A DNA stretch of 64,000 nucleotides from Idiomarina loihiensis. Lineage in GTDB: Bacteria > Pseudomonadota > Gammaproteobacteria > Enterobacterales > Alteromonadaceae. Under the pieces are notes generated by a model. That model did not search any database and was not told the DNA's origin. It worked only from the letters and a program-made list of their open reading frames with translations. Location: NCBI RefSeq assembly GCF_024584785.1, contig NZ_CP074112.1:2604001-2668000 (forward strand), in the 5' to 3' direction. This document shows, piece by piece, positions 43,988-63,926 of this stretch (position 1 is the stretch's first letter; each line of letters starts with the position of its first letter). Position numbers and translations under genes: made by a program.

Positions 43988-43996
43988 ATGAGAGCC

Positions 43997-44039: not shown

Positions 44040-44051
44040 TGTTCGTGTTGT

Positions 44052-44765: not shown

Positions 44766-44882
44766 GTTGAATTCCTCTGCTGCGCAAAAATAATGGCGGC
44801 GATTATATCAGATATGGATGTGAAATTCCGTTGCTTTGCGAGAGGTGCTAAACTATCCGTATTACAAACCTAAGGAATACCA

Positions 44883-45746
44883 ATGATTCAATCAATGACC
44901 GGCTATGCGCGCCATGAACTCAAAGCAGAGTGGGGCACCGCCACCTGGGAAATGCGCTCAGTAAACCAACGCTTTTTAGAAACTTATTTTCGGTTACCAG
45001 AGCAAATTCGTTCATTAGAAAACAGCCTGCGCGATCGCTTACGCAAGCAGCTACAGCGCGGCAAAGTAGAGTGTAATTTGCGCCTACACATTGAGCAAAA
45101 AGCCGAAGGCGGGTTAAGCCTCAACGAAGAACTAGCACGTAGCGTTATTTCTTCTGCAAATTGGGTCGCCAACCAAAGCTCAAGCGCGCAACTTAACCCG
45201 CTAGACGTACTACGTTGGCCGGGCGTAGTCGCTCAGCAAGAAGAAGATATGGATGCCATTCAAGCTGACGTACTAGGTGCGTTTGATGCCTGTTTGAGCG
45301 AATTCATTGATAACCGTGGCAGCGAAGGCAAAGCCCTCGAGCGCATGATTGAAGAGCGCCTTGAAGGGATATCTACCCAAGTTACATTTGTGCGCGGCCG
45401 TATGCCAGAAGTACTGCAGTGGCAACGAGACAAGCTGCTAGCGCGCTTTGAAGAGGCCCGCGTAGAACTCGACCCAACCCGCCTTGAAGCCGAAATGGTG
45501 ATGCTAGCGCAAAAAGTGGACGTCGCCGAAGAGCTAGACCGCCTAAATGCCCACGTTGTTGAAACCCGCAAAATTCTGCGCAAAGGTGGCGCTTGCGGCC
45601 GCCGCTTAGATTTCATGATGCAAGAGTTCAATCGCGAAGCGAACACTCTGGGCTCCAAGTCAATTAACGCTGACATTACGGCAGCTGCGGTAGAGTTGAA
45701 GGTGTTGATTGAGCAGATGCGCGAGCAGATCCAAAACATCGAGTAA
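44883..45746 (+). CDS. yicC: YicC/YloC-family endoribonuclease
   Basis: The 287-residue protein starts MIQSMTGYARHE and ends in the conserved region KGGACGRRLDFMMQEFNREA and NTLGSK, hallmarks of the YicC family, which has been shown to include RNA endonucleases acting in mRNA and sRNA decay. The gene is divergent from rph, as in E. coli. Its last codons coincide with the left copy of a 22-bp direct repeat, so the element downstream is inserted at its 3' end without changing the protein. gmk, often nearby, is missing from the window. Confidence 0.95.
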   Translation: MIQSMTGYARHELKAEWGTATWEMRSVNQRFLETYFRLPEQIRSLENSLRDRLRKQLQRGKVECNLRLHIEQKAEGGLSLNEELARSVISSANWVANQSSSAQLNPLDVLRWPGVVAQQEEDMDAIQADVLGAFDACLSEFIDNRGSEGKALERMIEERLEGISTQVTFVRGRMPEVLQWQRDKLLARFEEARVELDPTRLEAEMVMLAQKVDVAEELDRLNAHVVETRKILRKGGACGRRLDFMMQEFNREANTLGSKSINADITAAAVELKVLIEQMREQIQNIE

Positions 45747-45906: not shown

Positions 45907-46434
45907 TTAGTAGTGAGCTTGTTTATCAGCCTCAGTTCCTAAAACTAATTGAGCGAAAGTCAGCTCAAGTAAGTCGAAAATATCTGTACACTCAACGTCA
46001 AATACGCGCGAAATGTTGGGGATTTTTACCTTGGTGCTGTTATTTGGAACCATAACTTCGTGCGTAACGATGACCGCTCCAATAGTTCTAGCTACAGCAA
46101 TAAGCCAAGGATCCGCACCAGAGAGAAAACGAGCTATCTCTCCTTGTGAATAAATAGAATGCTGCACAACATGGTTTGCAATTTCAGCATAGGCTTGCTG
46201 AATTTGAATATCTTTAGACCCGTGAAAAAAATGCTTATTAGTTATCGACCAGTTATGTAAGTCATCTGGGGTTGGTGTTGTTTTAGTTAATTCCGAATAT
46301 ACATGGTCGATACTGCGAATATCAGCCTGTTCATGCTTCTGAACAAGCCAGGTCCAGAATCCAGGGACTACGTTCATCCTGTAGTGGAAATTCTTTGCTT
46401 GTATAAATGAATTAGCATCCAGCAAATAAATCAA
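45907..46434 (-). CDS. PIN-domain protein, DUF4411 family (putative toxin)
   Basis: The 175-residue protein begins MIYLLDANSFIQAKN, the DUF4411 start with the first PIN acidic residue (Asp6). Further acidic residues follow in GADPWLIAVARTIGAVIVTHE (near 107), matching the PIN RNase active site. It is encoded downstream of, and overlaps by 4 bases, an XRE-ImmA/IrrE gene, an arrangement predicted by others to be a toxin-antitoxin-like pair. Function as an RNase toxin is inferred. A role in phage defence is possible given the surroundings. Confidence 0.82.
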   Translation of the reverse strand: MIYLLDANSFIQAKNFHYRMNVVPGFWTWLVQKHEQADIRSIDHVYSELTKTTPTPDDLHNWSITNKHFFHGSKDIQIQQAYAEIANHVVQHSIYSQGEIARFLSGADPWLIAVARTIGAVIVTHEVMVPNNSTKVKIPNISRVFDVECTDIFDLLELTFAQLVLGTEADKQAHY

Positions 46435-47585
46435 AAACTAAGTTCCTTCTTTGCAAAATCCTTTAACTTGCTTGGATGAACACCAATAAGGTGATGTGCA
46501 TCTCTCAACAGCATACGACCGCTCAAGGCCTCGCTTGCAACTGCGGTCGCAAGCTTCTTACTATAGCGCATATTGATTAACCGGTTGAAAGGCGGTCCAC
46601 CTTCTTTATCTTTTCGCTTTTCTTTTTCGTTTTTAAATGCGTCAAGAATTTTGCCGTAGTGACCCCAGTACTGTTGTTCGCTGATGAGCCTGTTTTCTAG
46701 AGCTCGACGGGCAATAACCCACTGGCTGACGTGAAAATGGGACTCTAGCTGTGGAAGATTTACGCGCCAATCTTCTAGTTCAACATCCCATAAACTTAAG
46801 AATTCGTCGGATGGTACGAGAAATTCAGCCGCCACGCGATTACAAAACTTCTCAAATCTATTTTCGTTTCGATGACTTAGGTCGGATACACCAGACTCAT
46901 TAATAAGAAGGTGTACGAATTCATGCAGTAATGTAAAAATTTGTGCCTGAGGCGTATCCGTTGCATTTATGAAAATTACCGGAGCGTGATCATCAGCTAT
47001 GGCAAAGCCTCTAAATTCATCACGATCTAAACTTCGGTGGGTATTGTTTCCTACAACACTGTTGCGCATAACTAAGGCGCCAAGTACCTCGATGTTAGTT
47101 ATTAACTCGTTGAAGTAATCGTGAAACTGTCTGGGGCGTTGTGCAATAGAACTACCAAGCAAGTTTTTAATTGTAGCGGTGGCTAACTCAAAGTCGTCGA
47201 CGGATACACATCCTATCCAGTTTAGTCTTGGTAGGTCTTGCTCACGATAGAAATCCTTATACCAAGCAAGGCGTTCAAAGGTACTTCGTATTGTATCTTT
47301 CAAATCCAAACTAAATTTACCAATCGGATGATTACCGATTGTCCGAAGATCGGGAATGGGTAACTCCTCCCGCGGAGGCTCATGTAAAAACAAATACCCA
47401 AACGGAACGTAGGTTTTGTCGGCAAACTTTTGAGCTTGCCGGAAAGTCGGCTTGGAGTCGCCCGTCTCCCAAGCTTCAACTTGTTCTTGTTTGATCTTTA
47501 ATTTTTCTGCCAATTTAGACACAGTAAACCCTGCCCGTTTACGAGCCCACGCTAGGATGCTTGGATTTACTAGTGTTTCAACCAT
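46431..47585 (-). CDS. XRE helix-turn-helix plus ImmA/IrrE metallopeptidase
   Basis: The 384-residue protein joins an N-terminal XRE DNA-binding domain (about 8-62, FTVSKLAEKLKIKQEQVEAW) to a COG2856 zinc peptidase domain with the HEFVH motif at 221-225 and a further Glu nearby. Such proteins cleave or bind repressors (ImmA) or act as antitoxins. It precedes the PIN gene and overlaps it by 4 bases, so it probably regulates that operon. The start ATG at 47585 lacks a strong Shine-Dalgarno. Confidence 0.85.
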   Translation of the reverse strand: MVETLVNPSILAWARKRAGFTVSKLAEKLKIKQEQVEAWETGDSKPTFRQAQKFADKTYVPFGYLFLHEPPREELPIPDLRTIGNHPIGKFSLDLKDTIRSTFERLAWYKDFYREQDLPRLNWIGCVSVDDFELATATIKNLLGSSIAQRPRQFHDYFNELITNIEVLGALVMRNSVVGNNTHRSLDRDEFRGFAIADDHAPVIFINATDTPQAQIFTLLHEFVHLLINESGVSDLSHRNENRFEKFCNRVAAEFLVPSDEFLSLWDVELEDWRVNLPQLESHFHVSQWVIARRALENRLISEQQYWGHYGKILDAFKNEKEKRKDKEGGPPFNRLINMRYSKKLATAVASEALSGRMLLRDAHHLIGVHPSKLKDFAKKELSF

Positions 47586-47663: not shown

Positions 47664-47943
47664 GCTTCGTCTGTAGAGTCGAAGGTGTATCACAAGCTGT
47701 CAAGTAGCAATTGGAACCAGCAACCATAACTGGTGACCACATGCCTTGAGCAGCCGCACATAACGATTAGCTGAAACATGCCGATAGTTCCCTGTGACGC
47801 AATGATATTATACATCATATGTGACATATGAGTGGCCCGGCGCACAAGCGCTATGTATACGTAACAACTACGTTTGTTAAGCCCAAGACGGTAGCGGATG
47901 GCCACAGTCTTAGCCGTTTTGGGTTTTGCAAAGGGATTTTTGC
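47664..47943 (+). ncRNA. Structured non-coding RNA upstream of the reverse transcriptase
   Basis: This stretch has no plausible protein on the + strand for its first 160 bases and is rich in stems. They include CTTCG/CGAAG (47665-47684), ACCAG/CTGGT (47716-47734), TCATATG/CATATGA (47815-47831, 3-base loop), GCGC/GCGC (47840-47851), ACGTA/TACGT (47859-47873), GTGGCC/GGCCAC (47832-47837 with 47900-47905) and CCCAA/TTGGG (47882-47923). DRT2 systems have an ncRNA of about this size and position, part of which is reverse-transcribed as the template. Ends are estimated from the promoter and the RT start; the template limits are not determined. Confidence 0.6.
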
Positions 47944-49209
47944 ATGGCAACGGATGATTCGACCTGGTTTAAAAGACGAGGTTACCTCCACTTTGATGCG
48001 CCGCTCGGCGTCGCTAAAGCAACTAAGTTAGTTAGAAATACTAAGGCAGTCTCAAAGCACGCTTTTTACCCGCTGCTTCGTTACGAAGTCATCTCGAAAA
48101 AACTCAAACGTAATGCAGATGGTAAGTTAAAACCGGAACCAAAAGTTCGGCCTATTTCTTATGCTGCGCATGCGGATTCTCAGATATATTCTTTTTATGC
48201 TAATCAACTAGCTGAAGCCTATGAGAGAAAGTTAGCTAGCTTGGGGATATCAGAATGTGTTTTGGCATTCAGAAAACTCCGTAAATCCAATATCGAATTT
48301 GCGCGTGACGCATTCAGTGAAATAAGTAGTATGGGCCGTTGCTCGGCGGTAGCAATTGATATTTCCAAATTCTTTGACACCATAAACCATCAACACCTGA
48401 AAAGATCGTGGTGCGATGTAATTGGTAGAGGTAAGCTTCCCAACGACCATTACGCAGTGTTTAAATCGCTCACGAAATTTTCATTTTGTAACCGAGACGC
48501 GGTTTATAAAACCTTTCAAATATCATCAAATAATCCGTGGAATGGACGACAAAGGATCTGTGAGCCCGCTGAATTTAGAAAGCGAGTGCGTGATTCTGGT
48601 TTAATTACGACGAATAAAGACATTTTTGGAATACCTCAAGGCACGCCACTAAGCGCGTTATTGTCGAACATTTACATGATAGATTTTGACCGGCAAATGA
48701 AAGCCTTAGCTAAAGAGTGCGGGGGCAGCTATCGTAGGTACTGTGACGATATGCTTTTTATCGTTAAGCGTGGATGCGAAGCGCGTGTGGAGTCACAAGC
48801 TGATTCTGAGCTTACTAAGTTAGGGGTGGTCATAAACCCCAAGAAAACCGAAATAAGACACTTTTGGCGATATGGCGGGGTTCAAACGGCCAATGCACCT
48901 CTTCAATATTTAGGGTTTACATTTGATGGGCAGAGAATTTTGTTGCGCTCAGCAGCATTGGCGAAGTTTTCGGGCCGAATGAATAAAGCGATTCGACTAG
49001 TATCAAGAGCACTCGAAAATCAATTAGACGAAGGCGAGGATGTTCGTCTTCGGAAAAAGAAGCTTTATGAGCGTTACAGTCATCTCGGTCATCGTAATTT
49101 CATTCGCTACGGGCTACGAGCTGCCGATAAGATGCATTCGAAAGCCATAAAACGTCAGCTCAAGCCACTTTGGGGGAAGCTAAATAAGAAGCTTGATAAT
49201 CTCAGCTGA
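47944..49209 (+). CDS. drt2: Defence-associated reverse transcriptase, DRT2-like
   Basis: The 421-residue protein has the RT palm motifs in order: VRPISYAAHADSQIY (about 68), motif A AIDISKFFDTI with Asp near 139, GIPQGTPLSALLSNIYM (about 229), the catalytic RRYCDDMLFI (about 266) and the late PKKTE. The YCDD box in place of YADD, the start WFKRRGYLHFD, the length and the absence of maturase or CRISPR domains fit the DRT2 (UG2) class as I remember it. ATG at 47944 follows AAAGGGA. DRT2 enzymes make concatemeric cDNA from the upstream ncRNA on infection. Class assignment needs a search. Confidence 0.78.
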   Translation: MATDDSTWFKRRGYLHFDAPLGVAKATKLVRNTKAVSKHAFYPLLRYEVISKKLKRNADGKLKPEPKVRPISYAAHADSQIYSFYANQLAEAYERKLASLGISECVLAFRKLRKSNIEFARDAFSEISSMGRCSAVAIDISKFFDTINHQHLKRSWCDVIGRGKLPNDHYAVFKSLTKFSFCNRDAVYKTFQISSNNPWNGRQRICEPAEFRKRVRDSGLITTNKDIFGIPQGTPLSALLSNIYMIDFDRQMKALAKECGGSYRRYCDDMLFIVKRGCEARVESQADSELTKLGVVINPKKTEIRHFWRYGGVQTANAPLQYLGFTFDGQRILLRSAALAKFSGRMNKAIRLVSRALENQLDEGEDVRLRKKKLYERYSHLGHRNFIRYGLRAADKMHSKAIKRQLKPLWGKLNKKLDNLS

Positions 49210-49267: not shown

Positions 49268-49942
49268 TTATTTTATTGTTATGGCGTTACTCATTTGACG
49301 TTTTTCTAGATACTCATGTGCGTCATTCGCAATATCATTTCCTAAAGCTGCACGGCCCAGATTTGTGGCTGCGATTATAGAAGAGCCTGAACCGAAGAAC
49401 GGGTCGCATACTACTTCACCAAGTTGGGTACTTTGAGTAATCAGCTTTTCAATTAAATTTACCGGTTTCTCTGTTGGGTAGCCTCGCCAGACACGCTTCT
49501 CTTCGAGGACATCAGGCATGCCTAAATCATTAAGCTTTCGCTTTCCCTTTTCGAAGAAAAGGATGAATTCATATCGGGCGCGATAATGGTAGCCCATCCC
49601 AATTGCCTGCTTATCCCACACCAAGGGCTTCCAAAATCTAAAGCCTGCGGCTTCAGCTATTGGCTTGATGACGAACATCGTTTCTTGGTCGCAAAATAAA
49701 TAAAAATGACGGTTATTTTTAAGGACTCGATATATTTCACTGACTAGTTCAGGAAAACGTTCGTTTGGGAAAATACGAAACCAATTATTGCTTGAGCTTT
49801 TACTATGGCTTAAGCGAGTAGTTGTGCCTACAGCTCTATGTTTTTCTAGAGATTCATAAGGAGGATCTGTGATGACAAGATCAATTGATTCAGAGGGCAG
49901 TTTTCGGAGCCAATCGACGGCATCTTGTCTAAATAGATTCAT
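49268..49942 (-). CDS. Solitary DNA methyltransferase (N6-A/N4-C, beta-type order)
   Basis: The 224-residue protein has the catalytic motif DPPY at 26-29 (VITDPPYES) followed, near the C-terminus, by the AdoMet-binding VCDPFFGSGSSIIAA. This is the beta-class order with a short target-recognition region between. It should methylate adenine N6 (or cytosine N4). No endonuclease is encoded beside it. A small zinc-ribbon gene ends 8 bases upstream and is probably co-transcribed. It may be a solitary modification enzyme, or protect against a restriction enzyme now lost. Confidence 0.85.
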   Translation of the reverse strand: MNLFRQDAVDWLRKLPSESIDLVITDPPYESLEKHRAVGTTTRLSHSKSSSNNWFRIFPNERFPELVSEIYRVLKNNRHFYLFCDQETMFVIKPIAEAAGFRFWKPLVWDKQAIGMGYHYRARYEFILFFEKGKRKLNDLGMPDVLEEKRVWRGYPTEKPVNLIEKLITQSTQLGEVVCDPFFGSGSSIIAATNLGRAALGNDIANDAHEYLEKRQMSNAITIK

Positions 49943-51011: not shown

Positions 51012-52973
51012 ATGAAAATTGAGAAGGTAAGACTGCAGAACTTTCGGTGTTTTGGACATCAGGTTGTTGAGCTTAATTTTGAAAAAGTACTGACTACGCT
51101 TGTTGGCGGCAACGGTTCCGGAAAAACGGCACTGTTACAAGCAGTATCACGGTTGTTTGGTACATCGCCAGCGCAGCGAGCAATACAGCGTCGAGACTTT
51201 CATATACCTGCTGACCGACAGGAACTTCTGTCTGGTGACAGCCTGTATATTGAAGCGATACTTACGTTTCCTGAACTTGCAGAACAAACCGGTTCTCCTC
51301 TTGATGCGGTCCCAGAATTCTTCAATCAGATGGCCGCATCAGCGCAGGGCGAGCCGCTCAAAGCTCGAATAAGACTACAAGCAATTTGGACCGATGATGG
51401 CACTCCAGAGGGAGCAATTGAAGAGGACCTTCGCTGGATACGAGCCTTGGATGATAATTTTGAGTGGGATGATTGTTCTAGAGTCCAAGCAGTAGAGCGC
51501 TCGTCTATTCAGCTCATCTATTTACCAGCCAATCGCGATGCGACAACACAGGTGACCGCTCTTCTGAAAGGACGTTTATGGCAGGCTGCAAAATGGTCGA
51601 CGGCATTTAGAGGCGCAAGTTCTGAAAATGCTAGTCAGATCCAAACCGATTTCGAGCAAGAAGTTCCGTTAATAGTTCTGTTAAGGCGTTTATCACAACG
51701 ATGGCAACAGGTGCACGAAGCCGATACCGATAGCCAACCTCGTTTAAGGTTGATTGAAAATCGTTTTGAAGAGCTTGTTCGAAAAGCCGAATTTACCTTT
51801 GCGCCTGATCAAGAAGGTCAGGAGCGAAGGTTATCCGAACTGAGTGACGGTCAACGTTCTCTTTTCCATATCGCTCTTACCGCAGCGACGCTTGAAACCG
51901 AGCGGGAAGCTTTCACTTTGCCCGCTGAGGACAGTTCATTTGAGCATGATAAGTTACATCGTGTTCATCTAACGATTTTAGCTATTGAGGAACCTGAAAA
52001 CAGCCTTTCACCGTTCTTTTTGTCCCGTATTATCGCCCAAGCTAGAGAAATCGGCGGCTTGCCATCTGCACAACTGCTTATATCCAGTCATTCTCCGGCA
52101 ATTATGAGTCGCATAGAGCCAGAAGAAGTCAGGTACATTCGTATGGATCTTGGAACAAAAAGCTCATCGATACGACAATTGACCTTACCAGGATTCGCAG
52201 ATGAGGCTGGTGTTTACGTTAGACTAGCGGTTAAGGCTTACCCCGAACTCTATTTTGCGCGATTTGTAATCTTGGGGGAGGGTGATTCGGAGCGCGTCGT
52301 TATTCCCAGAATAGCAGAAGAGATGGGCGTGCCGCTTGATCCATCATTCGTTCCTGTTGTGCCACTCGGAGGGCGGTTCGTAGCACATTTCTGGCGGCTG
52401 CTTAATGACCTTGAGATTCCACATGCTACATTGCTAGATCTTGATTTGGGGCGTAGGCATGGTGGTGCCAAAGTAATGAGCGATTGCATTCAAAATCTGG
52501 CTAATGTGGGCAATGATTTTGGAAATCGCAATTTAATTAATGTTGCTACGGTCACTGACCAGCAAATTTACAATGAAGGAATACAGGGGGATTGGTGCAG
52601 AGCGTTTGGAGATGAAGGCATTTTCTTTTCATATCCTCTCGATCTCGACTTTTCCATGTTACGTGCATTCCCAACTGCCTATCAGGTTACCAACCCAGGG
52701 GGGCACGGACCTCAGAGTAGTGCCTCGGCTATTCAGAACAAAAAGGTTAGCACACTAAAGTCAGGTGGTAATCTTGCCTTGTATAGCGAGGAATATGATG
52801 ATGCATTTAAATGGTACCCTTATCTCTTTCTGAGCCGTAGTAAGCCTGAAACTCATTTGGCGGCATTTTCCCGTATTCCAACTGGTACTTTGGCTACCTC
52901 CGCCCCCACTGAGCTCAGAGCTCTTATTCAATATGTTAAGGATAAGCTCCGTCTGCCAGGAGTAGATCAATGA
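51012..52973 (+). CDS. gajA: OLD-family ATP-dependent nuclease, Gabija GajA-like
   Basis: The 653-residue protein has an N-terminal ABC-type ATPase with Walker A GGNGSGKT at 32-39, a signature region LSELSDGQRSLF and Walker B LAIEEPENSLSP near 336 with the His switch SSHSP. A C-terminal TOPRIM domain follows, with ILGEGDSERVVIPRI near 420 and DLDLGRR. This is the class 2 OLD layout. Followed at 4-base overlap by a UvrD-like helicase, it forms a Gabija-type pair, which degrades phage DNA on nucleotide depletion. It is about 75 residues longer than the best-studied GajA. Confidence 0.75.
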   Translation: MKIEKVRLQNFRCFGHQVVELNFEKVLTTLVGGNGSGKTALLQAVSRLFGTSPAQRAIQRRDFHIPADRQELLSGDSLYIEAILTFPELAEQTGSPLDAVPEFFNQMAASAQGEPLKARIRLQAIWTDDGTPEGAIEEDLRWIRALDDNFEWDDCSRVQAVERSSIQLIYLPANRDATTQVTALLKGRLWQAAKWSTAFRGASSENASQIQTDFEQEVPLIVLLRRLSQRWQQVHEADTDSQPRLRLIENRFEELVRKAEFTFAPDQEGQERRLSELSDGQRSLFHIALTAATLETEREAFTLPAEDSSFEHDKLHRVHLTILAIEEPENSLSPFFLSRIIAQAREIGGLPSAQLLISSHSPAIMSRIEPEEVRYIRMDLGTKSSSIRQLTLPGFADEAGVYVRLAVKAYPELYFARFVILGEGDSERVVIPRIAEEMGVPLDPSFVPVVPLGGRFVAHFWRLLNDLEIPHATLLDLDLGRRHGGAKVMSDCIQNLANVGNDFGNRNLINVATVTDQQIYNEGIQGDWCRAFGDEGIFFSYPLDLDFSMLRAFPTAYQVTNPGGHGPQSSASAIQNKKVSTLKSGGNLALYSEEYDDAFKWYPYLFLSRSKPETHLAAFSRIPTGTLATSAPTELRALIQYVKDKLRLPGVDQ

Positions 52974-54829
52974 CTCGCGTAAGCACGGAGGATTGGGTCC
53001 CCCAGGGCGTTGGGGGTCTGGAAAACCGAGCATGGGAAGCTTTACGACAGAATGACATCAGCGTCCTCGTTACCGCTGGCGCTGGTGCTGGGAAAACCGA
53101 GTTTTTAGCACAAAAGGCGACTTATCTTCTTCAAACAGGAATTTGTCCGGCCCCCAAACGTATTCTAGCAATTAGCTTTAAAAAGGATTCAGCACGGAAC
53201 CTTACAGAGCGGGTTGCTAAACGTTGCCCTAAAGGCCAGGTACGGCGTTTTGATTCAATGACTTTTGATGCTTTTACCAAAGGACTTCTGGATCGGTTCC
53301 GTCCTGCGCTACCGGAGCCGTTCAATGCACCAGGCTCCTATCAGATCGTTACTCCGTTTCGTAGAAATTATGAGGATTTTATCGAGCGTCATAGCTATCA
53401 CAGAGTGAGCGCTCAGCAACTAGAAAGCGCAATACCTCTGGCAGACCTACCAATTGATATCTCAAGTGGTTCGGAAATAAATCGTGCATTAACAGATTAC
53501 TGGCAAGAACAACTTTTCGGGGAAGGTGAGATATCGCTGTCCTTCCCGATGATCAACAGGCTCGTAAAGCTGCTGTTGCAAGAAAACGCATATATCCGCC
53601 GAGCCTTACATGCAACCTATCCCATAGTCTTTCTTGATGAATACCAAGATACAACTTATGCTCAGTACGACATGCTGCTAACGGCATTTGATGGTAGCGA
53701 TTCTGTTTTCACAGCCGTTGGCGATGATAAGCAGCGTATTATGGGGTGGGCAGGAGCCATGAACGATGCTTTCGATCAGTTTGAAAACGATTTTGACGCT
53801 AGGCGTATTACCTTACTTTCTAACTGGCGGTCACACGAGGACTTAGTCCGTATTCAGCATGAGATAGCCCGACGGATAGATGGCAATGTGGAAGAGGTGC
53901 AGGCACAAGGGACCCGCGAGATCGAAGGAGATATTTCTGCAATCTGGCAATTTCGGAGCAAAGATGACGAGAAAAATTATCTCGCTGAATGGGTAAGCCG
54001 TGAGGTGCAGTTAGGGCGTGTCGAACCGCATGATGTTGCGATTCTTGTCAGAATGCGAGCAGATCAGGTGGAAGGTGAGATAACCCCTGATTTTGCAGCC
54101 CGAGGCCTTCGGATCAGAAACGCCGCGCGGTCAGTCGGTGAAATTCAAATTCAGGATCTTTTAGGAGAAGAGCTGACAGCTATATTCATTCCTTTGCTTC
54201 GCTTGGGAGCAACGGGCCGAAGCCCAGATAATTGGGAGGTTGCTCAGCAGAACTATATATTTCTGGAGGCGACGGACCCTGATAATGATATCACTCAGCA
54301 GCGATTACTGGTTAAGCTTGAAGGGTTCGTTCGTCGCTTAAGAGTAGAGCTAGAACGTCGCCAACCTGAACCTAATTCGGCTGAAGCGATTGCAGGAATG
54401 CTGCTTGCCTTTATCGGTTCTGCCACGCTAAGGCAATCCTTTCCAGCATATCAGCGAGAAAGAGATTTTGAGAGAGTTTGGAGTGGTTTTGTGGCACTTT
54501 TGAAAGAATGTGCAGAACACAGTGGTAGCTGGTCGGAAGTTTTGGATGAGTTTGAAGGTATTGGTCAAGTTGCTCTGATGACCGTTCATAAAAGCAAAGG
54601 TCTTGAGTTCCATACCATGATATTTTACGGCCTTGACAGTCAGACTTGGTGGAGTCTCACGCCGCAACGAGGTGAAGAACTAAACACCTTTTTCGTCGCC
54701 TTTACTAGAGCAAAGCAACGTGCATTTTTCTCCCAGTGCGTGGAGCGAGGGCGCTCTATCGGCTGGATACAGCAATTACTAGCTCTTGCAAGGGTGGAAA
54801 CGATAGATGGCACGACTATACTTAACTAG
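52970..54829 (+). CDS. gajB: UvrD/Rep-like helicase, Gabija GajB-like
   Basis: The 619-residue superfamily 1 helicase has Walker A AGAGAGKT at 36-43, motif II FLDEYQDT near 222, motif III VGDDKQRIMGWAGA, motif IV SNWRSHEDLV, motif V MTVHKSKGLEF near 540 and motif VI VAFTRAKQRAF. The ATG overlaps the stop of the OLD gene (ATGA). GajB partners are UvrD-like and sense or unwind DNA ends for GajA. It is longer than the 494-residue reference GajB, so this may be a divergent subtype. Confidence 0.75.
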   Translation: MTRVSTEDWVPQGVGGLENRAWEALRQNDISVLVTAGAGAGKTEFLAQKATYLLQTGICPAPKRILAISFKKDSARNLTERVAKRCPKGQVRRFDSMTFDAFTKGLLDRFRPALPEPFNAPGSYQIVTPFRRNYEDFIERHSYHRVSAQQLESAIPLADLPIDISSGSEINRALTDYWQEQLFGEGEISLSFPMINRLVKLLLQENAYIRRALHATYPIVFLDEYQDTTYAQYDMLLTAFDGSDSVFTAVGDDKQRIMGWAGAMNDAFDQFENDFDARRITLLSNWRSHEDLVRIQHEIARRIDGNVEEVQAQGTREIEGDISAIWQFRSKDDEKNYLAEWVSREVQLGRVEPHDVAILVRMRADQVEGEITPDFAARGLRIRNAARSVGEIQIQDLLGEELTAIFIPLLRLGATGRSPDNWEVAQQNYIFLEATDPDNDITQQRLLVKLEGFVRRLRVELERRQPEPNSAEAIAGMLLAFIGSATLRQSFPAYQRERDFERVWSGFVALLKECAEHSGSWSEVLDEFEGIGQVALMTVHKSKGLEFHTMIFYGLDSQTWWSLTPQRGEELNTFFVAFTRAKQRAFFSQCVERGRSIGWIQQLLALARVETIDGTTILN

Positions 54830-55217: not shown

Positions 55218-55403
55218 ATGAGTATTGGTAAAAGCGGTAGAATAGTTTTAGAGATAGACCCGGAGTTAAAAAGAGAGTTATACGGGAAAATCACAGCCGA
55301 AGGAGTGAGCCTCAAGGAGTGGTTTATTGCTTCCGCAAAGGAGTATTTAAATGGCAAACAGCCTGAAAAAACTATTTGCACGGGAAGAGAGTCTGATGAC
55401 TAA
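55218..55403 (+). CDS. Ribbon-helix-helix-like small protein preceding the methyltransferases
   Basis: The 61-residue protein begins MSIGKSGRIVLEIDPELKRE, a beta strand then helix pattern typical of Arc/CopG-type dimeric DNA-binding proteins, followed by a second helix (LKEWFIASAKEYL). ATG at 55218 follows TGGAG. It overlaps the next gene. It may act as a controller delaying restriction relative to methylation, binding the ATGTAAC repeats. That role is inferred from position only. Confidence 0.6.
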   Translation: MSIGKSGRIVLEIDPELKRELYGKITAEGVSLKEWFIASAKEYLNGKQPEKTICTGRESDD

Positions 55404-56268
55404 AGAAGTAAAAGTAGTGAAAGAAGAGACCAAAAAGGGCAAATATGACCCTCGAAATAAGCTAAACGATTTAACTTCTAGTGAATGGATTCCAGAAACA
55501 ATCTCAGTTTGGAATCAGAAGGGTTTGGGTAAAAATCACCCAGATGTAAAAATTGAAAAACAGCATCCGGCCCCATTTTCGTTTACAGATGTTGCTCGGC
55601 TCATTAAATTCTTCTCGAAAAAGGGGCAAACTGTGCTCGATCCTTTTTTGGGAATAGGCTCTACCTTAAAGGCTTGCGCTTTGGAAGGGCGTCATGGAGT
55701 TGGTTTTGAACTTAGTGAGAAGTATGCTGAGTTGTCCAGAGAACGACTAAAAATAGAAGTTTCTAGCGAAAGTGATAATTACCCGGAGCAATTGGTAATG
55801 CAAGGAGATGCTAGGGTGCTCGCCGATGAACTTGAAGAGAACTCTATCGATTTTCTAGTCACTAGCCCTCCATATTGGAACATACTACACAAGGTTGACC
55901 ATAAAGCAAAACAAGAGCGCCAAAGTAAAGAGCTTGATACAAAATATAGTGATAACTTAAAAGACCTTGGAAATATTGACGATTACGACGAATTCTTAAA
56001 TGAGTTAACGGGTATATTTGAAAAATGTCGGCGGGCTTTAAAGCCTGGCAAATATATGGCGATTATAGTGAGTGATTTCAGGGACAAGTCCAAGTATGTA
56101 ATGTTTCATTCAGACTTGGCTTCAAAGTTGGAGACTATCGGGCTTGAGATGCGAGGGTTAAAGGTTCTTTATCAACGCCACAAACGGATATTCCCATATG
56201 GCTATCCCTATGCGTATGTTCCAAACATTCATAACCAATTTATCTTGATTTTACAGAATAAGAAGTGA
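55351..56268 (+). CDS. DNA methyltransferase M1 (N4-cytosine-like)
   Basis: The 305-residue protein has the AdoMet motif DPFLGIGST at 97-105 before the catalytic TSPPYW at 170-175. TSPPYW is the form typical of N4-cytosine methyltransferases. The motif I before motif IV order with little sequence between places any recognition region at the C-terminal end. Two starts are possible: ATG 55351, with AAGGAG well spaced, or ATG 55396, overlapping the previous stop by 8 bases. I list the first. It is followed 4 bases later by a second methyltransferase, suggesting that each strand of an asymmetric site is modified separately. Confidence 0.83.
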   Translation: MANSLKKLFAREESLMTKEVKVVKEETKKGKYDPRNKLNDLTSSEWIPETISVWNQKGLGKNHPDVKIEKQHPAPFSFTDVARLIKFFSKKGQTVLDPFLGIGSTLKACALEGRHGVGFELSEKYAELSRERLKIEVSSESDNYPEQLVMQGDARVLADELEENSIDFLVTSPPYWNILHKVDHKAKQERQSKELDTKYSDNLKDLGNIDDYDEFLNELTGIFEKCRRALKPGKYMAIIVSDFRDKSKYVMFHSDLASKLETIGLEMRGLKVLYQRHKRIFPYGYPYAYVPNIHNQFILILQNKK

Positions 56269-56272
56269 TGCC

Positions 56273-57037
56273 ATGAATAAAATTTTTAATGAAGATTGTA
56301 TCGAGGGCATGACTAAGCTGGACGACTGTTCTGTTGACTTAATCATCGCAGACCCACCTTACAATTTGAACAAGAATTTTGGTCAGTGGGATGAGGCTAA
56401 GAATAAAGATAACTGGCTTCCATGGTCAAAACTGTGGCTAGACCAATGCAAAAGAGTACTAAAACCTGATGGTAATATTTTTGTTTATGGGATACACCAT
56501 CATCTCTGCTGGCTGCAATGCTACATGTATGAACTTGAGTTAAAATATCGGCGGCAAATCATTTGGTATTATGAAAATGGGTTTTCTGGTTACAAGAACA
56601 CTCTACAGGCACATTACGAACCGCTACTTTGGTTTTCAAAGTCTGATGAGTATACCTACAACCAAATTCGCGAACCCTACAAAAGCGCTGATAGGCTTAG
56701 GCATAAGGTGACTAAAAACGGTAAGGTTTGGACACCACACCCTGATGGACGATTGGCGGGTGACGTATGGCAATTTCCTACTTTGGCGGGGCGCAGATTT
56801 AAAGATGAAAAGGTTGCTCACCCAACTCAAAAACCGCTTTCGATTTCTCGAAGAATAGTGGAGCACTTTTCTGATGAAGGCGACACCGTATTGGTTCCTT
56901 TCGTGGGAAGCGGCTCGGAGTGTGTAGCGGCAAAGGAGCTCGGTAGAGAGTATATCGGCTTCGAGTTAAACCCGGATTACATAAAAATTGCAAAAACGCG
57001 GTTGGATAACGCTCAAAGCCAAAGAGAACTTGTATAA
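56273..57037 (+). CDS. DNA methyltransferase M2 (N6-adenine-like, beta order)
   Basis: The 254-residue protein has IIADPPYNLN near the N-terminus (DPPY at 27-30), a central recognition region, HPTQKPLSISRRIVEHF, and the C-terminal AdoMet motif VPFVGSGSECVAAKELGREYIGFE. The usual DPF of motif I reads VPF here. It is probably an N6-adenine enzyme. It converges with the Fe-S nuclease gene, leaving only 4 bases between stop codons. Together with M1 it makes a two-methyltransferase restriction locus. Confidence 0.85.
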   Translation: MNKIFNEDCIEGMTKLDDCSVDLIIADPPYNLNKNFGQWDEAKNKDNWLPWSKLWLDQCKRVLKPDGNIFVYGIHHHLCWLQCYMYELELKYRRQIIWYYENGFSGYKNTLQAHYEPLLWFSKSDEYTYNQIREPYKSADRLRHKVTKNGKVWTPHPDGRLAGDVWQFPTLAGRRFKDEKVAHPTQKPLSISRRIVEHFSDEGDTVLVPFVGSGSECVAAKELGREYIGFELNPDYIKIAKTRLDNAQSQRELV

Positions 57038-57041
57038 ACTC

Positions 57042-58049
57042 TCACTTTTCAGGTTCGAGGAGATCACAGGGAGAAGGCAGGTTAATTGCTCGACCTAACA
57101 TATTCTCGACGGCTCCCCTAGCTGACATATTGTTGTGGTCCAAGAAGAAATCTTCTAGGGGAATTTTTCTTTCGTTCCAGACTGCAACGAGAACAGCGGC
57201 TAACGGGACAACCGCAATCCTTAGGCCAGTGACCTCGTAAATGTCATGCAATAACTCCCAGAATTCAGTTCTTCTATTGGGCATAGAGGGAACGACAATC
57301 ATTCCGATGACATTGTGTTTACTGATATCGTATCGCGAACAGAATACAGCAACATCATCGAGAATATCTCTCGGAGCATCTAGGTTTGTAGCCTTTTCTA
57401 TTTCACATAAGACGTACTTCTTCTTATATATCCCTATCGCATCCATCCTCAGGTTCACATCCCCTTGCCTGCTTAACACATTCTCAATTCCACTGATTTG
57501 CATAGCTTTGGATACAAGGTTATTCAGTGTTCTGTAAGGAGATTCAGATCGCTCTATCCGCGAAAAAATAGTTTGAAAGAGCTCCTTGTTCTCGTTGATG
57601 TATTGGTTGTTTTCATTATGGGAAGCCTGGTCTGCTAGGCTATATTTGGTATCTGATGTTTCAATTGAATTATCATTGTAGGTAATTGAGATACCAGTCT
57701 CGTTCAAGCTAATCGCCTGCACAGGACAACGTGCAATACACATTCCGCACGATATACACGAATCTTTATCGATTTCGAGATGTCCATGCTCATTCGGGGC
57801 AATGGCATCGGTTGGACAAAGTTTAATCTTTTGAGAGCTGATTAAATCATCGAAAATTCCAGTAGGTACTGGGATTTTCATACAGTATGTTTCTTCACAA
57901 TTGACACAAGAAATTGGAAGTTCCTCTTGTGTATTGAATGTTAAGACCCTTATTCCGTGAGATAAGGTTGTGACAGACGAAACATCTTCTTGAATTTTGA
58001 ACCTATAAAGCTTCAAGTTAACTGAACGTTGATAAAAAAGTCTAGTCAT
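57042..58049 (-). CDS. Ferredoxin-domain protein fused to a PD-(D/E)XK-like nuclease domain (restriction subunit R2)
   Basis: The 335-residue protein has eight ferredoxin-type cysteines: C48-x2-C51-x4-C56 with C78-Pro, and the canonical C98-x2-C101-x2-C104-x3-C108-Pro, enough for two [4Fe-4S] clusters. After a linker (about 115-155) a domain follows with RMDAIGIYKKKYVLCEIEKA (Asp203, Glu216), resembling the PD-(D/E)XK core but reading Glu-Ile-Glu-Lys in place of Glu-x-Lys. It overlaps the upstream nuclease gene by 8 bases. I know of no described restriction enzyme with this fusion. The nuclease role is inferred from motif and context. Confidence 0.6.
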   Translation of the reverse strand: MTRLFYQRSVNLKLYRFKIQEDVSSVTTLSHGIRVLTFNTQEELPISCVNCEETYCMKIPVPTGIFDDLISSQKIKLCPTDAIAPNEHGHLEIDKDSCISCGMCIARCPVQAISLNETGISITYNDNSIETSDTKYSLADQASHNENNQYINENKELFQTIFSRIERSESPYRTLNNLVSKAMQISGIENVLSRQGDVNLRMDAIGIYKKKYVLCEIEKATNLDAPRDILDDVAVFCSRYDISKHNVIGMIVVPSMPNRRTEFWELLHDIYEVTGLRIAVVPLAAVLVAVWNERKIPLEDFFLDHNNMSARGAVENMLGRAINLPSPCDLLEPEK

Positions 58050-59017
58050 TGATTATTCCCGTTTTCCTTGATAGTTCGTCGAAGCCAAGCTTATGATTAT
58101 TTCTTAAACACTTAATGGCAATTTTCAAAAGGTAGTCGATACCAATTACCGCAACATCAATTTCAAAAACTTTCTTGAAGTCAGCTATCAACTGAGTTAC
58201 TTCCGCGCGGTTAGCTGGAAGATTAAATCCGACAGCTAAAGAAGAGGAATGTCTCTTATTTTTTATGGACTTTCGTGATTGAAGTATTATCTTATTCTCT
58301 ACGGCTTGCCTTATTGCTTTCACCGATATGTTCAGTTCTTCAGTTGGAGACTTGATCTCTATAGGAAGAGAATCGTCATGTGCCTTAATTACAGCATCCC
58401 ACCTTCTTGAATTGACGCCGTGAGGTGATATCTCACAATTTAAGCCGAGTACCGAAAATATATCGCCGATAAGGGGGTAAAACTTGTCTTTACTGTAAAT
58501 AGAGTACTTAGATTTCAACTTGGATATTATTTCCGATTCGCTATAGGCTTCTAAAAGAGGCTCAATATCTTTGACAAACTTGTTTTCTACATACTTCTCA
58601 CTTACCGTATATTCAGCTTCATTTAAAGCTAAGTAAGCAGCGTCGTAGCTTTTTTTTTCGTAAGTAATCGACGGGGAATAAATGGATTCCCTCTTTGATA
58701 CGGGTGGTTGCGTTTGAAAAATCTCTCTCAATTCATCCGGTGCTAAAGCCTGATATGGAGAGAATAGAATATTTTTCCCGACCACTTCCTTGGTTATTTG
58801 CTCCCATTTAGACTTCTCTTGCTGAATGTCTGTGATGTCGAAACCAGCGATTTCTAATAGCTCGTAAAATGCAGATTTAGCGATTGGATGTTTGCTATCG
58901 CTAGGTAAAATTTTATAGTCTGCCAACCGAAAGTCTGTTTTTGAGTTCAAGGCCTCTATGATTTCTTTTCCGGTTTCCGTTATTCGGTAAGTGTGTGTAG
59001 GTTTTTGGTAAAACTTT
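58042..59017 (-). pseudogene. Restriction subunit R1, 3' part (cut off by the IS)
   Basis: This is the C-terminal part of a nuclease gene. It contains a winged-helix-like join (YRITETGKEIIEALNS) and a PD-(D/E)XK motif, RRWDAVIKAHDDSLPIEIKS, with a classical Asp and Glu-Ile-Lys. Only a TTG (58950) could start it independently. The frame runs back without a stop to the IS boundary at 59017. After removing the IS and one CTTT copy it joins in frame to 60210-60907 as one 557-residue protein. It probably was the catalytic subunit of the restriction enzyme. Confidence 0.8.
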
Positions 59018-59088
59018 TGTAACTACCCCGTAAAATAATACAGCTCGCTCGTAGAATTTCTTTTAAACTAAAGCAAAGGAGTTTTACG

Positions 59089-59349
59089 ATGAGCAAACGC
59101 ATGACTGAAAGCCAAATTGTGGCGATTTTAAAAGAAGCCGAAGCCGGGATGCCGGTGAAAGATATTTGCCGTAAGTACGGCATCGGTAATTCAACGTTTT
59201 ACAAATGGCGCGAAAAATACGGTGGTATGGAAGCGTCTGATGTGCGCCGCTTAAAAGAACTGGAAGAAGAAAACCGCCGGCTTAAGCAGATGTATGCTGA
59301 GCTGAGCCTCAAGTCACAAATGCAAGAAGACATAATAAAAAAGCTCTAG
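59089..59349 (+). CDS. IS3-family transposase OrfA
   Basis: The 86-residue protein has the helix-turn-helix start MSKRMTESQIVAILKEAEAG, IGNSTFYKWREKYGGME, and a C-terminal leucine-zipper-like region (LKELEEENRRLKQMYAELSL) typical of OrfA. It ends in A AAA AAG at 59337-59343, in the right frame for -1 slippage to produce the OrfAB transposase. AAAGGAG precedes the ATG. Confidence 0.93.
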   Translation: MSKRMTESQIVAILKEAEAGMPVKDICRKYGIGNSTFYKWREKYGGMEASDVRRLKELEEENRRLKQMYAELSLKSQMQEDIIKKL

Positions 59350-59354
59350 CACCT

Positions 59355-60164
59355 GTGGCAGAACGGAAAATCTGGGCACGCGAGTTGCAGGTGCAGTATA
59401 ACGCGAGCGTTGTAAAGTGCTGTGATGTAGTTGGCATTAGCCGTACCGCTTACTATTACGAGCCAAAATTGAACGATGATGACGAAATCATTGATGCCTT
59501 GAATGCTTTAATCGACAAGCACCATCGGTGGGGGTTCCCGAAGTGCTTTAAACGCCTTCGAAAGCTAGGCCATCGATGGAACCACAAGCGTGTTTATCGC
59601 GTTTATACTGAGCTAAAACTGAACCTGCGACGCAAAGGCAAAAAGCGATTACCCAACCGCAACCCAGAGCCATTGGCTGCACCGAATGCATTGGGTAAGT
59701 CCTGGTCAATGGACTTTATGAGTGACAGCTTGCACAACAAAGTCAGGTTTCGCACATTTAATGTCATTGATGACTTTAATCGCGAAGTTTTAGGTATCGA
59801 TATTGCGACCAGCATGCCGTCGTTGCGCGTCATACGCTATCTTGACCAACTTGCTGAGTGGCATGGTTACCCTGAGAAAATTCGGGTTGATAATGGCAGC
59901 GAATTCACCTCGGAAGTGTTTGTAAATTGGGCAAAAGCACATGACATTATGATTGATTACATTAAACCTGGTTGCCCATACCAGAACGCCTACATTGAAC
60001 GATTTAACCGAACTTATCGCGATGATGTACTCGATTGCTACATCTTCAACAACCTGAACGAAGTGAAGCAAATAACCGAAGATTGGATTGAGCTATACAA
60101 CAACGAACGACCGCACGATTCACTCAATGACATGACGCCATTTGAGTACCGAAATGCGGCATAA
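59355..60164 (+). CDS. IS3-family transposase OrfB (DDE integrase core)
   Basis: The 269-residue frame carries the rve-type catalytic core: Asp in SWSMDFMSD near residue 119, Asp in IRVDNGSEF near 179, and Glu in YIERFNRTYR near 215. It lies in the -1 frame relative to OrfA. GTG at 59355 is a formal start, but the active product is probably the frameshifted fusion. It looks intact. Confidence 0.93.
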   Translation: MAERKIWARELQVQYNASVVKCCDVVGISRTAYYYEPKLNDDDEIIDALNALIDKHHRWGFPKCFKRLRKLGHRWNHKRVYRVYTELKLNLRRKGKKRLPNRNPEPLAAPNALGKSWSMDFMSDSLHNKVRFRTFNVIDDFNREVLGIDIATSMPSLRVIRYLDQLAEWHGYPEKIRVDNGSEFTSEVFVNWAKAHDIMIDYIKPGCPYQNAYIERFNRTYRDDVLDCYIFNNLNEVKQITEDWIELYNNERPHDSLNDMTPFEYRNAA

Positions 60165-60205
60165 ATACTCTACGAGATGACTGTGTTAGAAATGGGGTAT
60201 TTACA

Positions 60206-60907
60206 CTTTTTATCTCTGCATGGTTGCGCCCAGTTAAGCCATTTTAATGCCCCTAAGGGAAATCGTGTATAGTTTTCAGCCGTAGCTTTCTTAATTCCTC
60301 TACTCTTTAATGCTTCACTAAGCGCTTTTTTGAAATCGTTTGGTTTTTGTCTAAATCCTCGAATTAGCTCGACTTTGTTCTTCCATTCAATTTTGTCACG
60401 GTCGTGCAACATGGATAGAGGGCCCAAAATCATTTCATCTCGAGAGAGGACACCATCTAACTCATTCATGAATTTGATTATTGATGCAAAAGGCCTAATT
60501 GAGTAGTCACCGGAAACTTCAATTAATTCATTGGGGAACTCTATTCCTAAGAAGCACATTTCGACAAGTGGCTTTTCGTCAACCGCGGAAGCAACATGAT
60601 CGCCCAGCTGTGTAAACGTAAAGTTCAGAGCACTACCATGGCTTTGCATCCATCCTAAAAAGCGATATATCTCAGCAAACATCTTGCACTGGTTGTAAGA
60701 CTTGTCTCTTGATAAATCTTTATTTGAGCCTTTTAAAAGGGCCCGAATACCAGTTGCACCTGATGAGCTTATCAAGCCATTTGAGACCAGTATTTCCTGC
60801 ATATCGAATAGGCCAAATGCCTCATCGCGATCAATATTCTCGTATAACACATTAAAGCAATTTATTATGGTATCGACGGCTGACGATGGATTTGGAAACC
60901 TATGCAT
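60206..60907 (-). pseudogene. Restriction subunit R1, 5' part (interrupted by the IS)
   Basis: ATG at 60907, after AAGGA, starts a frame of 234 native codons that then runs 11 codons into the IS and stops at 60170. The protein (for example YRFLGWMQSHGSALNFTFTQ, IRPFASIIKFMNELDGVLSR, and LKSRGIKKATAENYTRFPLG) resembles the N-terminal recognition region of type IIS enzymes such as nicking-subunit relatives. That match is by general pattern only. It continues in the same frame at 59013. The truncated protein may still be made. Confidence 0.78.
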
Positions 60908-61924: not shown

Positions 61925-63481
61925 ATGAAACCAGTTGGATATGCTTACCTCAACCTGCATTACGATTTACGTCTACCGAAGCTCGGGGTGGAGGTTTATC
62001 AGGATCCAAATGTGGAAAAGGAACAGTTGATCCAATATGGTGGTAGCAAGCGCAAGGTCATTCCTGGCCACCTGAAGTACGATGATAACCCTTACTCGCA
62101 GATGCATGCGGCAATAAAAAACCAAGGCATCAGACTGCATTTCTTTGCAGCAATTTATAAAAAAATTAATGTGACTGAATTTACTGCGTTTATTTTAGAT
62201 AAACCGACAAGTCAATATAACCGAGTGCTCTGGTTTCTTTACGAATGGCTAACTGGGCAAAAGCTTGATATCCCGGACTTAAAGTCGTCGAATTATATAA
62301 AGTTATTTGAGGACGAGTTCTACTACACCCTGAGAAATGGGCAGAAAGATAAAAGAACACGGGTTATTAATAACGCGCTAGGTACACCTGACTTTTGTCC
62401 GACGATCCGAAAAACAACTGAGATAAGTCAGCTTGGTGAGGCTGACGTTTATAAAACTGCATTTGCGAGAATGCAGCGCATCGGAGAGCAGCTATCAGTT
62501 GACGTGATTGGGCGATCAGTGAATTACCTTTATACAAAAGAAACAAAATCATCGACGGAGATAGAAAGAGAAAAGCCAAATCGACAGCGCATGCAAAGAT
62601 TCCTGAATGCGATAAAAAATGTTGGCTTGTATGAGTTGAACAAGCATTCGCTCATCAAGGTTCAGAACCAAATTGTGGATGAGAAATTTAAAGCGGTCGA
62701 TTACCGTGAATCGGAAATTTATGTCGGTACAACGATTCAAAGATTTGGGAATCGAGATGAAGATGTTCATTACGTTGGTGCTAAACAAGAGCACGTAGCA
62801 AGTATGATGAATGGTCTAATCAAGCTACATGAAAACTTGATGATCGATGGCTCAGTTCCCCCATTATTCCACGCAACGTTGATCTCATTCGGTGAAGTTT
62901 ATATTCACCCATTTGACGATGGAAATGGTCGCATTCATCGCTATCTGATTCATGACGTCATGAAGCATCGAGAACCAGAGCATAAGTTTATTATTCCGAT
63001 ATCTGCTGCGATCTTAAAAAACCAACAAAAATACGATCAGGTTCTTGAAACCATTTCGGTACCAATAATGGCGATGTTGGATTACGAATTCGACAATTCC
63101 AATAGAATCGTAATCAATAATGATATTGATTACATGTATCGCTTTCCGGACTACACCGAGCATGTAAAGTTTGTATATGAGATGATGGATACAGCCATCT
63201 CCGATGATCTACTAAAAGAAGTATGCTTACTTACCGTGTTCGACTGTTTGAAAAAATTTATCAACGAAAATGCGGACTTGCCGAACAATAAAATCGATAT
63301 GGTTTTGTCGATTATTATTCAAAACGGTGGTGAAGTTTCGAAGCGCAAACGTGAGCAATTAGAAGCTCTATTAGAAGGCCAGATTCTCAATGAACTAGAG
63401 GGGCTGGCGACCCGCCTAATCGAAGAAATTAAGGATAAATTTGAAATTGATGTTGTTGCGGTGATGAACGAAGAGATTTAA
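61925..63481 (+). CDS. Fic-domain protein (AMPylase family)
   Basis: The 518-residue protein has the Fic motif HPFDDGNGR at 328-336, so it should transfer AMP (or another nucleotide moiety) to a target hydroxyl. A candidate inhibitory helix reads Ser210-x3-Glu214 followed by Arg, where the consensus has Gly or Asn. If real, it would be a class II (N-terminal) self-inhibited enzyme. The N-terminal 200 residues and C-terminal 150 are not recognised. AAAGGA precedes the ATG. No separate antitoxin is encoded next to it. Confidence 0.85.
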   Translation: MKPVGYAYLNLHYDLRLPKLGVEVYQDPNVEKEQLIQYGGSKRKVIPGHLKYDDNPYSQMHAAIKNQGIRLHFFAAIYKKINVTEFTAFILDKPTSQYNRVLWFLYEWLTGQKLDIPDLKSSNYIKLFEDEFYYTLRNGQKDKRTRVINNALGTPDFCPTIRKTTEISQLGEADVYKTAFARMQRIGEQLSVDVIGRSVNYLYTKETKSSTEIEREKPNRQRMQRFLNAIKNVGLYELNKHSLIKVQNQIVDEKFKAVDYRESEIYVGTTIQRFGNRDEDVHYVGAKQEHVASMMNGLIKLHENLMIDGSVPPLFHATLISFGEVYIHPFDDGNGRIHRYLIHDVMKHREPEHKFIIPISAAILKNQQKYDQVLETISVPIMAMLDYEFDNSNRIVINNDIDYMYRFPDYTEHVKFVYEMMDTAISDDLLKEVCLLTVFDCLKKFINENADLPNNKIDMVLSIIIQNGGEVSKRKREQLEALLEGQILNELEGLATRLIEEIKDKFEIDVVAVMNEEI

Positions 63482-63541: not shown

Positions 63542-63670
63542 TCATGTTAGCGTAGCGGTTTGCTTGGCAGTATCTAACACCAATTTTTCTGGCAGCATGG
63601 CTTTAGCCGCTAAGTGTGACAGCTCATCGAGCGTAAAATCACTGAATTTCTTGCTACGACTCACCTTCAT
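63542..63670 (-). pseudogene. Remnant of a HipA-like toxin gene
   Basis: ATG at 63670, overlapping the end of the XRE gene as hipA does with hipB, opens a frame of only 42 codons. Its C-terminal two thirds (TLDELSHLAAKAMLPEKLVL and DTAKQT) resemble the extreme C-terminus of HipA kinases, where LPEKLVLDTV-type sequences occur. The kinase body of about 380 residues is missing. This suggests an internal deletion that left start and tail. It might instead be a small intact protein. Confidence 0.5.
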
Positions 63671-63926
63671 CGCTGATCCCTTGGCTGCTTCGAATGATTG
63701 ACTTGATGGCAGGAATGGACTTTTTAGGCGCAACCAGTAGCTCTAGGTCGAGAACACGGGCAAGTGCAATCAAACTGGACATTCTTAAATCAACGCCGCC
63801 AGACTCGATTTTCGAAATATGACTTTGCGGCACCCCCGAACGCGCGCTTAACTCTCTTTGGCTAAACCCCTTGCGTACCCGAGCTTCTCGAAGACTTTCT
63901 AGTATCTGCTCTGTTACATAGCTCAT
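63654..63926 (-). CDS. HipB-like XRE-family regulator
   Basis: The 90-residue protein has an XRE helix-turn-helix (about 8-62: GFSQRELSARSGVPQSHISK, LRMSSLIALARVLDLEL) and a short tail, the layout of HipB antitoxins. It is followed by an overlapping truncated hipA-like frame, so it may now be an orphan repressor. The AT-rich region to the window end (63927-64000) should hold its promoter. Confidence 0.82.
   Translation of the reverse strand: MSYVTEQILESLREARVRKGFSQRELSARSGVPQSHISKIESGGVDLRMSSLIALARVLDLELLVAPKKSIPAIKSIIRSSQGISDEGES

Follow-up and report, generated by a model that had tools for sequence, protein, structure and literature searches.

Organisation of the locus

A putative restriction-modification locus lies in a 64,000-nucleotide stretch of the Idiomarina loihiensis genome (contig NZ_CP074112.1, positions 2,604,001 to 2,668,000), hereafter the window; the host genome is a single contig of 2.9 Mb. 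Two DNA methyltransferase genes, M1 and M2, on the plus strand converge with two nuclease-like genes, R1 and R2, on the minus strand. M1 (55351–56268; 305 amino acids (aa), motif TSPPYW) matches the Pfam model N6_N4_Mtase with an expectation value (E) of 6.1e-28 and the PADLOC model MTase_II with 1.3e-40, and M2 (56273–57037; 254 aa, motif ADPPYN) matches the same models with 1.4e-54 and 2e-63, respectively. R2 (57042–58049; 335 aa) combines an N-terminal ferredoxin-like domain with a C-terminal nuclease-like domain and overlaps the 3′ end of the R1 frame by 8 bp.

A preliminary description of this DNA had reported two overlapping nuclease-like genes on the minus strand. The overlap was confirmed, but R1 is not one gene, being split by an insertion sequence. 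Its C-terminal piece (58042–58950, minus strand), recognised by its reading frame and the conservation of D, E and K, carries the D..EIK core, and its N-terminal piece (60206–60907, minus strand), presumed to be the DNA-recognition part, is matched by the R1 profile (E 7.8e-105). The IS3-like insertion sequence (59018–60205, plus strand; 1188 bp) has two transposase frames. Its ends, TGTAACTACCCC and TGTAAATACCCC, are inverted repeats in which 11 of 12 bases match, and CTTT flanks it on either side; a repeat finder that required at least 14 bases reported none at this site. A second, partial copy, 99% identical, is found elsewhere in the genome. Because R1 is broken here and undivided in its relatives, where it is a single gene for 557–587 aa (557 aa in the intact copy of Idiomarina piscisalsi TPS4-2, locus L002), restriction has probably been lost from this genome. 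M1, M2 and R2 are whole frames, and methylation alone is likely to remain.

Relatives and conserved gene order

Searches with R2 as query gave a single true relative, in I. piscisalsi (79% identity), and other searches with single or few sequences gave this relative or none. Sample by sample, R2 recovered only its own copy (1/26 for the genus, 1/295 for the order, 1/369 for the class and 1/398 for the phylum). A joined query of R1 and the nuclease part of R2 gave hits in 5 of the 395 genomes sampled from the same family, of which four were real (the genome itself, G1301 at the positions of L002, G1338 and G1281) and the fifth, G1241, had an E of 7.1e-4. One candidate, L003, matched the ferredoxin part alone and was dropped. 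Profiles of R1 revealed further relatives in IMG/VR contigs, and the R2 profile by itself found nine IMG/VR loci, every contig of which also bears R1. The family is rare in the sampled genomes, since a larger R1 profile recovered its own copy alone from samples of the phylum (1/200) and the order (1/295). The resulting set, which includes IMG/VR contigs, comprises 16 R1 loci with the window and has few independent branches; L031 repeats L030, and L047 is nearly identical to L046, with one R2 residue differing.

R2 is the next gene after R1 at 15 of the 16 loci, the exception being L037, where the contig ends first, and M1 and M2 adjoin R1/R2 in 14. The remaining two loci stop at a contig edge, L033 after R2 and L037 after R1, and neither M1 nor M2 was found in the upstream DNA available for them. 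The outcome that the preliminary description named as refuting its reading, R2 homologues lying mostly away from methyltransferases, was the reverse of what was seen. Among the 14 loci with both methyltransferases the R and M pairs are convergent in 12, and all four genes are co-directed in L034 and L035.

The TSPPY motif is present in the M1 of 11/11 relatives and DPPYN in the M2 of 11/11. We take the former to be typical of N4-methylcytosine (m4C) and the latter of N6-methyladenine (m6A) enzymes, a combination that would suit one methyltransferase per strand at an asymmetric site. Plasmid-borne relatives of M1/M2 at five loci were tried as a guide to the R genes and set aside, the best tblastn E being 0.45 for R1 and 0.42 for the nuclease part of R2.

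By eye, the genes surrounding L029, L030/L031 and L033–L035, all on IMG/VR contigs, look phage-derived. Because several relatives sit among such genes, the R1/R2 system may travel on prophages.

The nuclease-like domains of R1 and R2

The nuclease-like domain of R2 (residues 150–335; 57045–57602, minus strand) is, as judged by profile comparison, a paralogue of the C-terminal domain of R1. Aligned with hhalign, the two domains matched with E 8.4e-17 and probability 98.8 (13 R2 and 12 R1 sequences), and with E 4.9e-11 when four sequences of each were used. When the R2 profile was run on the frames from 11 loci (three of them sources of the profile, two with one and the same sequence), its matches at E ≤ 1 comprised all 11 R2s, all 11 R1s and no other frame.

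In the hhalign alignment D203, E216 and E218 of R2 correspond to D440, E453 and K455 of R1. The signature of PD-(D/E)XK nucleases, D..(D/E)-x-K, is present as D..E-x-K in 13/13 aligned R1s as well as in the C-terminal piece in the window, in agreement with the classical Asp...Glu-x-Lys core originally ascribed to R1. R2 had been described as carrying a PD-(D/E)XK-like motif, EIEK, with the lysine replaced. The replacement holds: E218 occupies the position of the catalytic lysine of R1, and the string conserved in 14/14 aligned R2s is D..E-x-E. The terminal lysine of EIEK is not part of the motif, as K219 varies across R2s (K, T, E, Q, N, A, G or S), and its candidacy as a displaced catalytic lysine was rejected for this lack of conservation.

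The ferredoxin-like domain of R2

The ferredoxin-like domain (residues 45–115; 57705–57917, minus strand) was recognised by Fer4 models and by eight conserved cysteines. A Pfam scan of R2 gave Fer4 with E 3.4e-07 and twelve Fer4-type families in all, within residues 76–142; beyond these it gave DNAJ_related, below threshold, with E 0.17. Among the matches listed from other libraries (the best 25 of 101 for NCBIfam and 60 of 183 for PDB), those of R2 are iron–sulfur proteins by name. Fer4 was matched in 7 of 11 R2s scanned, a set that contains seven domain-bearing R2s.

C48, C51, C56, C78, C98, C101, C104 and C108 are invariant in 10/10 aligned ferredoxin-type R2s (nine if the near-duplicate L047 is left out; L031, an identical copy, was excluded), and no other column has cysteine in at least 6 of these 10. 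The cysteines had been said to follow the exact spacing of a 2[4Fe-4S] ferredoxin. Their number and the second motif, a canonical C-x2-C-x2-C-x3-CP, agree with this; the first motif deviates from the spacing expected of such a domain, reading C-x2-C-x4-C-x21-CP in the window and C-x2-C-x4-C-x21..25-C in the family, with proline following except in L030. All of the conserved cysteines are N-terminal to the nuclease domain and none is conserved inside it, which is in keeping with the proposal of a ferredoxin module distinct from the nuclease domain.

The ratio of non-synonymous to synonymous substitutions (dN/dS, Nei–Gojobori counts; dS about 0.9–1.1) between the R2s of the window and I. piscisalsi is 0.083 for residues 45–115, 0.078 for residues 150–335 and 0.197 for residues 1–125. 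The ferredoxin core is under strong purifying selection and its surroundings are under less.

Members with and without the ferredoxin-like domain

The domain is present in 11/15 R2s (334–367 aa) and absent from 4/15 (213–215 aa; L021, L033, L034 and L035), or present in 9/13 and absent from 4/13 when two near-duplicates are excluded. Because 4 of the 15 R2s lack the domain, the family does not in general require an iron–sulfur cluster. In the trees of R1 and of the R2 nuclease domain a single branch (support 100/100) parts the domain-bearing from the domainless loci. When the tree is rooted on the paralogue, by way of the R1/R2 duplication, the short R2s are nested within the ferredoxin-type R2s, which suggests that the short clade may have lost the domain, although the ferredoxin-type R2s were recovered as a single group in 38% of 200 bootstrap trees and the tree was flagged for long branches. 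The short R2s are little more than a nuclease domain.

M1 also varies among the loci. A longer M1 N-terminus was found in 3/3 M1s from loci lacking the ferredoxin domain (L021, L034 and L035) and in 1/8 from loci with it (L028). By eye the extension is helix-turn-helix-like in L021 (1144–2241), L028 (11623–12870) and L035 (2755–3867), and the extended M1s of L021 and L028 match the PADLOC model mad1 (8.1e-10 and 1.6e-10). The M1 of the window is shorter, without a helix-turn-helix-like extension.

A putative Type IIT-like restriction-modification system

In Type IIT restriction enzymes of the unequal kind, as set out in excerpts of one review, site recognition and cleavage of one strand fall to a larger subunit, a smaller subunit cuts the second, and two methyltransferases are in general present (PMC4081073). 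Excerpts of other texts describe the same logic for BtsI (PMC2909958) and for BspD6I, in which activity of the small subunit requires a large subunit that is itself catalytically active (PMC6261011). BtsI, BsrDI and BspD6I/BstNBI share a large subunit for recognition and cleavage and a small subunit that is a nuclease, and they generally have two methyltransferases. R1 (about 560 aa), the nuclease part of R2 (about 200 aa) and M1/M2 fit this layout: the paralogous domains of R1 and R2 carry two different predicted catalytic sites, and the methyltransferases adjoin them. The short R2s are consistent with a small subunit that has no sequence specificity of its own and depends on the large one, and are near in size to the small subunit of BstNBI/BspD6I, given as 186 aa (PMC4081073). 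R2 differs from the known Type IIT enzymes in its D..E-x-E site and, at 11 of 15 loci, in its ferredoxin-like domain.

The locus is therefore likely to encode a heterodimeric, Type IIT-like restriction-modification system in which R1 and R2 cut one strand each and the ferredoxin-like domain is mainly structural or concerned with docking. The N-terminal part of R1 would read an asymmetric DNA site and its C-terminal D..E-x-K domain would cut one strand, while R2, through its D..E-x-E site, would join R1 and cut the other, so that a nick becomes a double-strand break. Each methyltransferase would protect one strand. Most members found have an N-terminal domain on R2 that most likely holds two [4Fe-4S] clusters; its main role would be that of a rigid folded unit that stabilises R2, docks it on R1 or contacts DNA. 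Linkage, paralogy and motifs, all read from sequence, in this way favour the two-subunit restriction enzyme with two methyltransferases put forward in the preliminary description.

Several points weigh against this interpretation. Catalysis by R2 is suggested by conservation, and its catalytic lysine position is occupied by glutamate. Structure-library searches gave no significant sequence tie of R1 or R2 to solved nucleases, and among the R1 and R2 proteins scanned no nuclease model of Pfam, NCBIfam, PADLOC or PHROGs was matched, all library matches outside the ferredoxin part having E 0.029 or worse. In hhalign comparisons with six AlwI-family proteins, one of which matches BspD6I at 4.9e-12, R1 gave a probability of 0.7 (E 0.08) and R2 of 0.07 (E 0.71). 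Because the AlphaFold models have predicted local distance difference test (pLDDT) scores of 33.7 for R2 (2-row alignment) and 35.2 for R1 (1-row alignment), the nuclease fold of R2 is argued from motifs and paralogy. Cluster binding, DNA cleavage and the recognition site are likewise predictions.

Membership of the AlwI/BspD6I family had been prompted by a tblastn match of E 0.5; the profile–profile comparison gave it no support, and R1 has no detectable sequence homology to the AlwI family or to the solved BspD6I chains. Profile searches of PDB gave no match for the nuclease domain of R2 and either none or one chance-level match (E 0.25) for that of R1, and positions 217–286 of the R1 profile weakly resemble the winged helix of MarR (E 0.06). 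The remaining sub-threshold matches were judged to be due to chance: PDC-S32 (0.029) and DNAJ_related (0.089) for R2 outside its ferredoxin part; Rep3_N (0.74), lpg1689_fam (0.06) and a PHROG neck protein (0.069) for R1 or its pieces; and four Pfam families with one R1 member each (E 0.05–0.08).

Alternative interpretations

A different role for the clusters, which we consider unlikely, is that R2 docks and cuts only when they are intact or correctly charged, so that they would control the conversion of a nickase into a double-strand cutter. Oxidation, nitric oxide, iron shortage or slow cluster loading would then leave the nickase and spare the cell, or restriction would be delayed until methylation is complete. 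The domain does lie on the subunit expected to convert the nick into a double-strand break, its eight cysteines are kept, and its absence from one clade would suit a regulatory add-on; the longer M1 N-termini of the domainless loci, helix-turn-helix-like in some, would allow alternative control there. For such a switch, however, the sequences hold no direct evidence. Domain-bearing and domainless loci are parted by one branch of the tree, and because of this the link of the domain with the architecture of M1 counts as one event. ABCE1/Rli1, an ATPase of ribosome recycling, has an N-terminal two-cluster ferredoxin-like domain that is commonly regarded as structural. A structural or docking role is favoured over a switch because the gene set also exists without the clusters and because of this precedent.

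It is also conceivable, but decidedly improbable, that R2 has no nuclease activity and is a catalytically dead or purely structural paralogue, with a homodimer of R1 cutting both strands and R2 tuning binding. The fixed glutamate at the catalytic lysine position speaks for this, and the R2 nuclease domain is less conserved than that of R1 (mean column identity 43% over 13 rows against 55% over 12). Yet D203, E216 and E218 remain invariant even where identity to the R2 of the window falls to 23%, which is rare for a dead site. BamHI, with D..E-x-E, has a glutamate (E113) at the third motif position, where in that enzyme it is compatible with activity. R2 differs from BamHI in that its site would be paired with a dissimilar one in a presumed heterodimer, and no sequence match between the two was found. 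Excerpted text describes D94N/E113K BamHI as cleavage-deficient (PMC8845596).

That the domain carries electrons for another process, such as repair or a partner reductase, with its nuclease neighbourhood incidental, is highly improbable: the domain matches general ferredoxin models, but it is fused in one frame with the nuclease domain, in a gene that overlaps R1 in the window. The fusion is seen at 11 of 15 R2 loci, always beside R1.

Comparison with other iron–sulfur proteins

AddB is an iron–sulfur nuclease. AddB and Cas4 resemble R2 in having an iron–sulfur cluster in a nuclease-domain protein; theirs is one cluster on four cysteines of the nuclease domain, whereas the eight cysteines of R2 lie in a separate N-terminal module that is absent from a clade. 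The likeness to ABCE1/Rli1, drawn from description only, is that in both a ferredoxin-like domain is joined to a protein that works on nucleic acids with no obvious redox reaction, although ABCE1/Rli1 is not a nuclease. The account of Cas4 as an iron–sulfur nuclease follows an excerpt of PMC4176176.

Among defence proteins, BrxP of Type-4 BREX also has a ferredoxin-type, cysteine-rich region. In excerpts of a text on BREX, which also mentions an RNA recognition motif (RRM)/ferredoxin-like fold, this region is said to recall a 4Fe-4S ferredoxin-type domain and its role is called unclear (PMC12839542). It lies on a modification protein resembling 3′-phosphoadenosine-5′-phosphosulphate (PAPS) reductase, whereas that of R2 is on a predicted restriction nuclease. 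Another near text concerns DNA phosphorothioation (PMC9239217, in excerpt), and in the excerpted part of a review of restriction-modification the sole mention of iron–sulfur sits in a reference (PMC12602166). Among the papers listed by searches of open-licence PMC texts, none was found to describe a Type II restriction enzyme with a ferredoxin or iron–sulfur domain, in line with the preliminary description, which knew of no such system. What appears to be new here is a putative Type IIT-like system with an iron–sulfur subunit, the heterodimeric layout being already known.

Natural members with and without the domain occur beside the same partners, and the role of an iron–sulfur domain in a DNA-cutting enzyme could therefore be tested by direct comparison. 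Gating of cleavage by the clusters would couple restriction to iron or redox state. A structural role would make the family a clear example of a ferredoxin-like module put to new use as a building block, as well as a new heterodimeric restriction and nicking family.

Genomic neighbourhood

Upstream of M1 lies a Gabija pair (51012–54829; GajA 9.2e-233 and GajB 1e-209, PADLOC), and before it a DRT2-type defence reverse transcriptase (47926–49209; PADLOC Drt2 9.4e-186), together with an RmrA-like protein (46431–47585; 2e-22) and a further methyltransferase (49268–49942; 3.9e-33). A Fic-domain protein (61925–63481; PADLOC candidate PDC-S24, 1.1e-153) and a small helix-turn-helix gene (63654–63926) are also nearby. 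Because Gabija, DRT2, Fic, RmrA-like and methyltransferase genes cluster here, the region looks like a defence island.

The same core genes (pyrE, rph and yicC, by eye; 43343–45746 in the window and 8508–11491 in L002) border the islands of the window and of I. piscisalsi, and as both islands adjoin them a shared insertion hot spot is likely. In I. piscisalsi an integrase is present there. Just upstream of R1 in that locus (670–2324) is a gene for a HipA-like kinase (Pfam HipA_2 1.9e-12, PADLOC PDC-M66A 6e-12), which is followed, before R1, by a gene without a significant match.

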